Source: Acidimicrobiales bacterium (GTDB taxonomy: Bacteria; Actinomycetota; Acidimicrobiia; Acidimicrobiales; RAAP-2). Taken from it: 64,000 bases of DNA. Position numbers and translations under genes: made by a program. Under the pieces are notes generated by a model. It was not told the origin of the DNA. It did not search any database and saw only the letters and a list, made by a program, of their open reading frames with translations. Below are positions 53,662-57,852 of this stretch, in pieces (position 1 is the first letter of the stretch; each line of letters opens with the position of its first letter). The DNA lies in assembly GCA_017883135.1 (NCBI GenBank), contig JADGOE010000001.1, positions 1 to 64,000 of the forward strand, written 5' to 3'.

Positions 53662-55110
53662 GTGGCAAGATCTGCTGTGACTTCGGAAAGTATCCGCCGG
53701 CGGGGCGGCGAAGACGGGCGCCACCCAGGCCCGGTGGCTGCACCGGTCGCTGGGAGGTCTCCTGCAGTCGAGGTCCCCGACGCGTCCTCCACATGCCCTC
53801 TTGCCCCTCGTTCATCGTGGCGGCGCCCACCGCCGGCGAGCTCCGGCCGCCGGAGACGCCGCACGGTCCACAACTCCGGCATCGTGGCATCGGTCGCAGT
53901 TGTCGCACTGCTGGCCGGGGCCTGTGGCACGGGAGCCACCTCGACTGGGTCATCGTCAGTGGCCACCATCGCTCCGGAGTCCCCGTGGCTCGGGGCCTTT
54001 GCCGCCGCCGCCCTGCCCCCTCCGGTCAACTCGCTGCGATCGCTCGACTGCGTGAACGCCTCCTCGTGCTGGGCGGTCGGTTCCACCGTCGGCGGTGCCG
54101 GAGCGCCGAACGGAGCGGCGGTGATCACCACTACCAACGGGGGGGCTGAGTGGTCGAGCCAGGTGATCCCTGCCACCGCCGGCTATCTCTCCGGCATCGC
54201 CTGCAGCGATGTCCGCCACTGCACGGCGGTCGGTCAGTCCAGCCAGAGCTCCGATGGACAGGGTGCGATCATCGTCACCTCCAATGGCGGGACAACCTGG
54301 AAGGCACAGCCGATCCCCGCCGACATATCGGACGTCACCGCGGTGGCGTGCCTCGCCGACTACCACTGCACAGCGGTCGGCACCGTGCCCGGCGGCGCCG
54401 CAGTCTTGACCTCGCGGGGATCAGGTGCTCCGTGGACGCAGGCAGGCCCCGTGCCCCCAACCGTGTCGGGAGCCACGTCCATCTCCTGTCCCGACGACCA
54501 GCACTGTTGGGTCACCGCTCACACCACCATCGACGTGGGCCACGTGGCCGGTGTGGTCGACGTCACCGTCAACGGCGGCACCACGTGGACGGCACAGGTG
54601 GTCCCGCCGGGCATCGGCTACCTCAACGGTGTCTTCTGTCTCGATGGGCCGAGTGCCGTCCCGTTCACCTCGTCGGCGGCCACCTCGCGGAGCACCGGCG
54701 CTGGAACCTCGACCACCAGTGGGACCGCGGCTCTTGGCGGGGTGACGGGAGTCGACTGCGCCGCGGTCGGGACCACCAACGGCGGCCTGAACGGCGTTCG
54801 CACCGGCCACGGGGTCATCCTGACCACTTCCGACGGCGGGGCCAAATGGACGACTCGACAGGTGAGCAAGCTGTCTGCCGCCCTCATGGGCATCGCCTGC
54901 ACGGCACCTGGCTCGTGCGTGGCCGTGGGCAGCACGGGCGCCGCATGGCCCCAGGGGGGAGTTGCCATTATGACCGGCCCGGTGGCGGAAGCCTGGCGGA
55001 AAGCGGCAGTGGTCGGCTCGCCCCAACCCCTGACGGCAGTGAGCTGCGTGTCGACTTCACGCTGCGTCGTGGTCGGAGAATCGATCAGCGAGCACCTGAC
55101 AGGGGGCTGA
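53662..55110 (+). CDS. Secreted/lipoprotein YCF48/BNR-type beta-propeller protein
   Basis: Lipobox LLAGACG; repeated blades LDCVNASSCWAVGS, IACSDVRHCTAVGQ, VACLADYHCTAVGT, IACTAPGSCVAVGS; start uncertain. Confidence 0.7.
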   Translation: MARSAVTSESIRRRGGEDGRHPGPVAAPVAGRSPAVEVPDASSTCPLAPRSSWRRPPPASSGRRRRRTVHNSGIVASVAVVALLAGACGTGATSTGSSSVATIAPESPWLGAFAAAALPPPVNSLRSLDCVNASSCWAVGSTVGGAGAPNGAAVITTTNGGAEWSSQVIPATAGYLSGIACSDVRHCTAVGQSSQSSDGQGAIIVTSNGGTTWKAQPIPADISDVTAVACLADYHCTAVGTVPGGAAVLTSRGSGAPWTQAGPVPPTVSGATSISCPDDQHCWVTAHTTIDVGHVAGVVDVTVNGGTTWTAQVVPPGIGYLNGVFCLDGPSAVPFTSSAATSRSTGAGTSTTSGTAALGGVTGVDCAAVGTTNGGLNGVRTGHGVILTTSDGGAKWTTRQVSKLSAALMGIACTAPGSCVAVGSTGAAWPQGGVAIMTGPVAEAWRKAAVVGSPQPLTAVSCVSTSRCVVVGESISEHLTGG

Positions 55111-55275: not shown

Positions 55276-56772
55276 ATGAGCAACGTGGAGCCGATCCGGT
55301 CGCCCCCGCGGCGACGCCCGACAATCACTTCGGCGTTCGGCGTCGGACGTCGGGAGGCCCACGATGCCTCGTCGTTCTATGCGCGCTTCAGCCCACCGCT
55401 GGTCTCCGACGACAGCCGTGTGGCCCCCCCCGCTGCACGCGACGAGATCTGGATCGGCGATGCCCGGGAGATGGACCGCTACGGGAAGGTCGCCGATAAC
55501 TCGGTGGCTCTGGTGATCACATCGCCGCCGTACTTCGCCGGCAAGGAGTACGAGGCCGCACTCGGAGTAGGGCACGTGCCAGCCAACTACGCCGCCTACC
55601 TCAGCATGCTTCACGACGTCTTCGCCCAGTGCTTCGCCAAACTCGAACCAGGCGGGAGAATTGCAGTGAACGTGGCCAACCTGGGCCGCAAGCCGTACCG
55701 ATCACTCTCCCGCGACGTGATCGACCTGCTCGAACGCCTCGGTTTCCTCCTGCGGGGAGAGATCATCTGGCAGAAGAGCCACGCAGCCGGCGGCTCGTGT
55801 GCCTGGGGCACCTATCAACGTCCCGGCAATCCGGTGCTCCGTGACGTATCCGAACGGATCGTCGTCGCCTCCAAAGGCCGATTCGACCGGGCCCTCGCTC
55901 CCGACGAACGCTCGGCCCGGGGTCTGCCCAACGAGGGGACGATGACCATGGACGAGTTCGTCGATGCGACCATCGACCTCTGGGACATCCCCACCGAATC
56001 GGCCACTCGGGTCGGCCACCCGGCGCCCTTCCCTGTGGAGCTGCCCAGGCGCCTGATCGAGCTCTACACCTACCGGGGGGACCTAGTGATGGACCCGTTC
56101 ATGGGGTCGGGTTCGACTGCAGTCGCGTCGATCCGGACCGAACGCCACTACGTCGGGTTCGACACCGACGAGGGCTACGCCGCCTTGGCCGAACGCCGGA
56201 TCGCCGAGGAACGTGCCCTTCCGGCCGGCACGGCAGGGACCACCTCGCGGCGGGTCACCGTCCCACCGGGTCGGTCATCGCCACCGTCAACGGAGGGAAC
56301 TCCGGAGGGGCGTGCCGTCAGCTTGGGCCAGAAGGCACGCGATCTGGCGCACCAGGCCCTGGTGGCAAGTGGGTTCGAGCACATCGAGCGCAACGTTGCC
56401 TACCGTGACCTGGGTATGAGCGTCGACTTCCGAGCCAGGGACGCGGCAGGTGGACTGTGGCTGTTCGAGCTCTCGGGCGCCTTTTCGACCACACGCCCCG
56501 GTCTCCGCCGGGCGGACGTCATGTGGAAGGAGCTAGGCAGGGCAAGCGTCCTCCACGAGGCGAAGAGACGGGATGGGTCCCGCGACGACCTGGGCCCGCT
56601 GATCCTGCTTTCGACAGATGTCCCGGCCGCCAAGAGCGCAGGGGGCAAGGCCCTGCGAGCCGTGGTGGCAGACGATCGCGGCGGTCCCATCTGCGACATC
56701 CTCGAACTGCTCGACCCCGAGTGCATGGAGCGGCTTCGAGCCTACGGGAAGGGTGACCGAACCCACGGATGA
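55276..56772 (+). CDS. Site-specific DNA methyltransferase (TSPPY class) with C-terminal extension
   Basis: VALVITSPPYFAGKEYE motif IV and LVMDPFMGSGSTAVASIRTERHYVGFDTD motif I; ~140-aa extra C-terminal domain. Confidence 0.88.
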   Translation: MSNVEPIRSPPRRRPTITSAFGVGRREAHDASSFYARFSPPLVSDDSRVAPPAARDEIWIGDAREMDRYGKVADNSVALVITSPPYFAGKEYEAALGVGHVPANYAAYLSMLHDVFAQCFAKLEPGGRIAVNVANLGRKPYRSLSRDVIDLLERLGFLLRGEIIWQKSHAAGGSCAWGTYQRPGNPVLRDVSERIVVASKGRFDRALAPDERSARGLPNEGTMTMDEFVDATIDLWDIPTESATRVGHPAPFPVELPRRLIELYTYRGDLVMDPFMGSGSTAVASIRTERHYVGFDTDEGYAALAERRIAEERALPAGTAGTTSRRVTVPPGRSSPPSTEGTPEGRAVSLGQKARDLAHQALVASGFEHIERNVAYRDLGMSVDFRARDAAGGLWLFELSGAFSTTRPGLRRADVMWKELGRASVLHEAKRRDGSRDDLGPLILLSTDVPAAKSAGGKALRAVVADDRGGPICDILELLDPECMERLRAYGKGDRTHG

Positions 56773-56784
56773 CCGAACAGGACG

Positions 56785-57852
56785 GTGGCCGACGACATGC
56801 CCGATGATCGGACCACGATCACAGAGCTCGGCACCGCGCTCGGCACACTCCCCTTCCCCGATCCGCTCGCCGCGCTGGCCCGACGGCCACCGGAGCTGCA
56901 GATAACCGAGCAAGTCTGGGAGCTCCTCGAGTCGATCGCACACTCCGGCCGGTTTGCCATAGAGCTGGCCGGTGCGTTTGCCAATGGACGCTCCTTCCTC
57001 GAGGCGACAGACGGCCTGCGGGGCCGGTCTCCCCTCGCCATCGAGTGGACCGGGGGGCGGCGGGCCCCCGGCGATGAGGTGGCGCCCATCGATCTCCGCA
57101 TCGACCACGTCTATCTGATCAGCTGCAAGTACGAGTCGGACATCCTGGCCAACTCCTCTCCGGCGCGCCTGTTCGACGGCCTGCTGGCCACCACGGGGAC
57201 CTGGGAGCGGAGCGACTGGTACGAGGCGACCGCACCCGAGGAGTTCTCCGTGCTCTACCGGGCGTGCCTGGCGGCCACCGGACTCACCGGGTTTCCCGAT
57301 TCGCCCGCCGCATGCACCCGAGCCCAACTCGGGTCCTTGCGCACCTCCCTGGTCGGACGGTCGTATCCCGACAGACCAAGCCGGTCGGCCTATGCCCAAC
57401 TGTGCCGCGCCGTCAGCCACGCCTCGGCCCAACGGTGGAACATGCAGCTGGGGGCGACGGGCATTGCCCCAGAGACGATGCTGTGGCGACTGCTGCGGAT
57501 CGGCAGTGCCCCCTACTTCGTGCTCGGCAACGACCGTCACACCGGTGCCCCGGCCAGGTTCCGGATTGCCGGGCCGTGGGACTGGCGGGCCCAGTTCGAA
57601 CTGGAGGGGTTCACGGTTGCGGCCGCGACGGCCGGGCAACCCAGGGTCGATTGGATGTGTGCCTACCGGACCCGGAAGGACAACGTGACCCGGACCGTGG
57701 CCGGTCATGTCGAGATCCGATGGAGTCATGGTCGGTTCGCCCAGCCCCCCGAGGCAAAGGTGTATCTGGACACCCCGATGGCTCAGCTGCCCGGCTACCA
57801 CCCACTGCTCTCCGTCGAGGAGCCCCAGTTGACGCTCTGGCCCCTCACCTGA
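56785..57852 (+). CDS. Putative nuclease-like partner of the DNA methyltransferase (hypothetical)
   Basis: GTG start 12 bp after MTase stop; LAIEWTGGRRAPGDEVAPIDLRIDHVYLISCKYESDILANSSPARLFD resembles a PD-(D/E)xK-type core. Confidence 0.5.
   Translation: MADDMPDDRTTITELGTALGTLPFPDPLAALARRPPELQITEQVWELLESIAHSGRFAIELAGAFANGRSFLEATDGLRGRSPLAIEWTGGRRAPGDEVAPIDLRIDHVYLISCKYESDILANSSPARLFDGLLATTGTWERSDWYEATAPEEFSVLYRACLAATGLTGFPDSPAACTRAQLGSLRTSLVGRSYPDRPSRSAYAQLCRAVSHASAQRWNMQLGATGIAPETMLWRLLRIGSAPYFVLGNDRHTGAPARFRIAGPWDWRAQFELEGFTVAAATAGQPRVDWMCAYRTRKDNVTRTVAGHVEIRWSHGRFAQPPEAKVYLDTPMAQLPGYHPLLSVEEPQLTLWPLT

Follow-up and report, generated by a model that had tools for sequence, protein, structure and literature searches.

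Gene arrangement at the locus

The stretch of DNA analysed here, 64,000 nucleotides long and called the window below, comes from a genome of Acidimicrobiia type and carries two plus-strand genes separated by an intergenic gap of 12 bp. The upstream gene (55276..56772, 498 aa) encodes M, a beta-class amino-DNA methyltransferase with a fused C-terminal domain (CTD), as judged from the ORF, Pfam PF01555, the PADLOC MTase_II model and PDB 2zie. The downstream gene (56785..57852) encodes the partner, a candidate restriction endonuclease (R) of 355 aa from a GTG codon, or of 351 aa from the ATG at 56797, which agrees better with the relatives. Residue numbers of the partner refer to the 355-aa ORF from GTG, and those based on the ATG are smaller by 4. 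In the preliminary description of this DNA, both ORFs had been placed correctly, as had the TSPPY and DPFMGSGST motifs, the 12-bp gap and the other quoted peptides, and its remark that the second ORF has no recognisable function agrees with the zero matches of the partner in Pfam and NCBIfam. In most relatives, the two genes lie next to or very near each other; in some they are unlinked. The pair is surrounded by housekeeping genes and not by a defence island. At window positions 53662-54176, long ORFs on opposite strands, encoding a serine protease with a colicin V domain and a BNR-like protein, overlap as called, and the start codon of one or both is probably set too early.

The methyltransferase and its C-terminal domain

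The catalytic part of M (55306..56214, plus strand) belongs to a subfamily with members in 236 of the 296 class genomes. PF01555 (N6_N4_Mtase) matches residues 77-306 (2.1e-34; 119.8 bits against a Pfam cut-off of 26.7), PADLOC MTase_II PDLC03350 matches residues 12-311 (6.5e-82), and PDB 2zie is matched at 7e-31. TSPPY lies N-terminal to DPFMGSGST. M is assigned to the beta-class amino DNA methyltransferases because PF01555 exceeds its gathering score and the SPPY motif precedes the FxGxG motif. The TSPPY sequence suggests N4-cytosine as the base modified by M.

A second domain of ~150 residues, at about residues 345-495 of M and common to 36 aligned relatives, constitutes the CTD, mapped to 56251..56769 on the plus strand from the alignment of 36, AlphaFold2, Foldseek and column counts. 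Its AlphaFold2 model (pLDDT 85.8) has the order helix-strand-strand-strand-helix-strand, as in the PD-(D/E)xK fold, and the top Foldseek matches are NucS/EndoMS, BsoBI and SfsA with probabilities of 0.97-0.99, at an E-value of only about 0.01. The domain carries the motif G(V)xx(N/D)F...W.F(D/E)(V/L)(S/T)G, with FELSG or FDVSG at the site of the lost lysine; in the window, D384 lies at 56425-56427 and E398-L-S400 at 56467-56475 (plus strand). According to the column counts, 0 of 36 relatives have lysine where the catalytic one is expected; Ser, Thr, Ala, Cys or Gly stands there instead. Since the lysine is missing from all 36, the CTD is probably not a nuclease on its own. The preliminary description had put its emphasis on the partner as a PD-(D/E)xK protein and had overlooked that the clear fold of this kind, devoid of its lysine, is at the C-terminus of M. 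In genome G420, the CTD is encoded by a separate gene of 305 aa (L054:6479-7393, minus strand), which adjoins a methyltransferase gene lacking the CTD and has an extra C-terminal part with weak similarity to DUF3574.

The partner protein

The 36 relatives of the partner can be aligned from end to end, down to 37% identity, and the nearest of them are from Acidimicrobiaceae or Acidimicrobiales MAGs. As an intact frame is kept in dozens of relatives down to this identity, the ORF is more than a product of chance. A candidate catalytic motif, E87...PID103xxxD107...SCK115 (57043..57129, plus strand), emerges from the column counts: E87, D103 and K115 are invariant in 36/36, and D107 and S113 are present in 35/36. 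Near the C-terminus, a motif resembling a Type II REase model, E310xRWSHG(R/K)F...PE323AK325 (57712..57759, plus strand), has E310, R312, S314, H315, G316, E323 and K325 invariant in the alignment. The partner may thus have two candidate active sites, PxD...SxK, with serine in place of an acid, and E...PEAK. SxK variants of the PD-(D/E)xK motif are known in Cfr10I, Bse634I and NgoMIV.

The AlphaFold model of the partner is confident (pLDDT 91.8, pTM 0.87). A Foldseek search of this model against the PDB gave no match with E<0.001 (best E 0.016, probability 0.20), and its listed hits include no convincing nuclease; a profile search of the PDB gave chance matches only, and profile-profile comparison of the partner with the CTD found no homology. 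The predicted fold is shared, at a Foldseek probability of 1.00, by the BFVD models A0A8D9C8Y9 and A0A1J0F9H5 of two large unannotated viral proteins. As to the initial proposal of a PD-(D/E)xK nuclease, the acidic and lysine residues are indeed conserved, D103 and K115 being found in 36/36 relatives, but the partner is only a candidate for such an enzyme, given the confident model without a PDB match and the second acid of the D...(D/E)xK motif, which is serine in 35/36.

PADLOC REase_II PDLC03456 matches the C-terminus of 32 of the 36 relatives weakly (E 7e-5 to 0.07), mostly over about 23-38 of its 387 positions; these matches are short, confined to the C-terminus with none of full length, below any safe threshold for membership, and not independent of one another owing to the kinship of the relatives. 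Where some 23 residues are covered, E is 0.0005-0.07. These matches are the only lead to a family for the partner, and no proof. GajA-type PADLOC matches obtained with the consensus sequence were dismissed as composition noise. A controller (C-protein) was also considered and ruled out by the size of 355 aa and the lack of any match to an HTH family.

Distribution and dependence of the partner on M

The class sample consists of 296 Acidimicrobiia genomes, mostly MAGs, so that some absences are assembly gaps; the 126 contigs of genome G000 add up to 2.96 Mb. Of the 296 genomes, 236 have the catalytic M subfamily, 122 the CTD and 49 the partner. The subfamily extends to streamlined genomes of ~1 Mb, where it is more divergent, and its presence in ~80% of the sampled genomes makes it a candidate core solitary methyltransferase of Acidimicrobiia. 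Among the 49 partner genomes, 48 have M at E<1e-80 and the 49th has a fragment of it at a contig edge, compared with 188/247 of the others (Fisher p=8e-5); M with the CTD is found in 44/49 compared with 78/247 (Fisher p=1.4e-14). Both tests ignore shared ancestry and hence overstate independence. The partner is absent from 78 of the 122 CTD-bearing genomes, and M-CTD stands alone in most of those inspected. Dependence is therefore one-sided: M exists without R, and R never without M, even when they are unlinked. The co-occurrence in relatives on which the preliminary description had staked its module is thus borne out, the M family being present in 49/49 partner genomes (one with the fragment).

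Presence of the partner switches repeatedly on the M tree: starred branches account for at least 9 changes, and parsimony gives 16, which indicates recurrent loss or gain of R alongside a persistent M. The tree groups several families and mixes others, so that horizontal transfer is likely. In a wider sample of the phylum, the only occurrences of the partner outside the class are in two genomes from a single further family, and close relatives of M occur in a few families only. No relatives of the partner were found in phages, plasmids or viral contigs, and no papers describing the M/partner pair were found among those on Acidimicrobiia methyltransferases or restriction-modification (RM).

States of one locus

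The locus is framed by a BNR-like gene on one side and by SAM-methyltransferase and decarboxylase genes on the other. At the orthologous locus, M and the partner are both present in the window, L002, L004, L007 and L009, with flanks complete in some and partial in L007. The partner is present without M in L003, L006 and L010, with which L005 agrees on a short contig that retains the left flank only, and M is present without the partner in G231 of the same genus. In the genomes lacking M at the locus, M-CTD is found elsewhere in the genome. Genomes with the two genes apart and M elsewhere are G655-G658, G190, G087 and G252; in the single closed contig of G190 they are about 440 kb from each other. 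In G237, a CTD remnant (L135:5024-5310, minus strand) lies beside the partner and an intact M-CTD lies 2.8 kb off, perhaps a replacement of M caught in progress. This series of M-loss and R-loss at one locus is a natural record of the way in which RM can decay into a solitary methyltransferase.

A small protein and free CTD paralogues in the operon slot

A protein of ~107 aa without a family match is encoded directly 3' of M-CTD in 27 genomes, and was found there only (e.g. L050:8200-8520, minus strand, and L051:3590-3922, plus strand); the genome of the window does not have it. It is a possible third subunit or regulator. Among these 27 genomes, 22 have the partner, which comes after the small protein wherever coordinates were compared, four have a free CTD paralogue next, and one has neither. 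Three of the four free paralogues in this slot are intact, with GVEID...FEYKGS, and one is a remnant. In all, free paralogues with an intact D...ExK (GVEID...FEYKGS) are found in G068, G084, G100, G191 and G279, and a remnant only in G072; the small protein is missing from G068 and G279. Those adjoining M are L129:6448-6870, L130:6143-6562, L133:3977-4414 (minus strand), L121:286-801 (minus strand) and L132:1469-1888 (minus strand). These paralogues form a small PD-(D/E)xK nuclease family with neither a Pfam nor an NCBIfam entry. The partner is present in 0/6 of the free-paralogue genomes, a number too small for significance, since chance alone would give this result among CTD genomes with a probability of about 0.07. 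In many families and contexts the partner follows M-CTD, whether the small protein is present or not.

Avoidance of palindromes

Comparison of three partner-carrying genomes with three others, limited to palindromic targets, detected no motif that is specifically avoided. CTAG is strongly depleted whether or not the partner is present, with observed/expected ratios of 0.13-0.34 in the window sample, G190, G110, G002 and G014; G003, at 0.97, is the one exception among these genomes.

Interpretation of the pair

The best explanation, with a probability of roughly 0.7, is that M and the partner make up a Type II-like RM module in which the partner is R. The partner is assigned to this role mainly because the same operon slot holds an intact nuclease motif in sister cassettes. 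We infer that M would mark a short target in host DNA by amino methylation, that the partner would cut DNA without the mark and would thus be dangerous in the absence of M, and that the CTD, a nuclease-fold domain minus its catalytic lysine, would probably serve for binding of DNA or R. The domains, their conservation, the dependence of R on M and the replacement of R in the slot by an intact PD-(D/E)xK nuclease were computed here directly. Support for the module comes from the dependence on M, the presence of M elsewhere when it is unlinked, the one-locus series, the slot exchange, and the invariant E/D/K residues together with the weak REase_II match. Counting against it are the partner fold without a PDB match, the lack of an avoided palindrome, the occasional unlinking of R and M, the housekeeping surroundings and the lack of plasmid or phage relatives. 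The modification/restriction type of pair suggested initially is supported, as is the pairing kept across relatives. A more elaborate form of the module is proposed tentatively: the widespread M, through its dead nuclease domain, would be a docking platform for an exchangeable R, sometimes joined by a small third subunit, and the dead domain would control or complete R, for example by forming the inactive half of a heterodimer. The part of the exchangeable R may then be taken either by the active paralogue of the CTD or by the partner with its new fold.

M might instead be mainly a host regulator, as are solitary methyltransferases of the CcrM or Dam type, and the partner a methylation reader or accessory factor rather than a nuclease. 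The breadth of the M family (236/296 class genomes, those of ~1 Mb included), the 78/122 CTD genomes without the partner, with M-CTD mostly alone where inspected, a partner fold unlike any solved nuclease and the lack of restriction avoidance would all suit such a role. It is nevertheless unlikely, since sister cassettes have an intact PD-(D/E)xK nuclease in the operon slot of the partner, a dependence so strictly one-sided is what R typically shows towards M, and the E/D/K residues of the partner are invariant. Dependence on M would equally be expected if the partner needs the mark, that is, if it is a modification-dependent nuclease or an abortive effector acting on the mark of M or on its loss from host DNA, in which case the CTD could sense or hold the mark. 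Such a nuclease would, however, cut the host if it always had its own active M as a neighbour, and there is no sign of control by infection, which makes this alternative highly improbable. Hardly any weight can be given to the idea that chance has brought an orphan methyltransferase next to a conserved gene unrelated to it: at the shared locus, L003, L005, L006 and L010 do keep the partner with no M beside it, but these very genomes retain M elsewhere, the partner follows M-CTD in many families and contexts, and the co-occurrence contradicts chance.

Comparison with known systems

In common with Type II RM systems composed of a beta-class M and a separate R, the genes for M and the R candidate are adjacent in one orientation, the R candidate never occurs without M, and the PADLOC MTase_II model is matched over nearly its full length by the catalytic part of M. 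The linkage and the dependence characteristic of Type II RM are thus observed, and cleavage is predicted. In contrast to these systems, the R candidate belongs to an unnamed family, M carries a nuclease-fold domain without lysine, and R, its cleavage being a prediction, is exchangeable and sometimes unlinked from M, which is unusual for Type II. What links the partner to PADLOC REase_II PDLC03456 is a short match in the C-terminal part of 32/36 relatives, about equally far from the end in each, although mostly only about 23-38 of 387 positions are covered. The CTD shares the order alpha-beta-beta-beta-alpha-beta with NucS/EndoMS, BsoBI, SfsA and other PD-(D/E)xK folds (Foldseek probability 0.97-0.99), but differs from them in lacking the catalytic lysine (36/36) and in being fused to a methyltransferase.

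Conserved orphan methyltransferases and patchy RM genes have been described in Halobacteria (PMC6471742). M is similarly widespread and often alone, and R is patchy; unlike the Halobacteria case, a single M family here includes both the solitary and the R-paired forms, and R types replace each other in one slot. The class that hosts M, in about 80% of the sampled genomes, is mostly uncultured and its methylomes are almost unknown; in one study, neither a motif nor a methyltransferase was detected for an Acidimicrobiia draft genome (PMC6329791). If R cuts, it would represent a restriction enzyme family that is named in no library searched here, has a predicted fold without a counterpart in the PDB and may have a new specificity. 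The unnamed R family, the fusion of M to a dead nuclease domain and the exchangeable R set the system apart from Type II RM, and its overall behaviour is most likely Type II-like.
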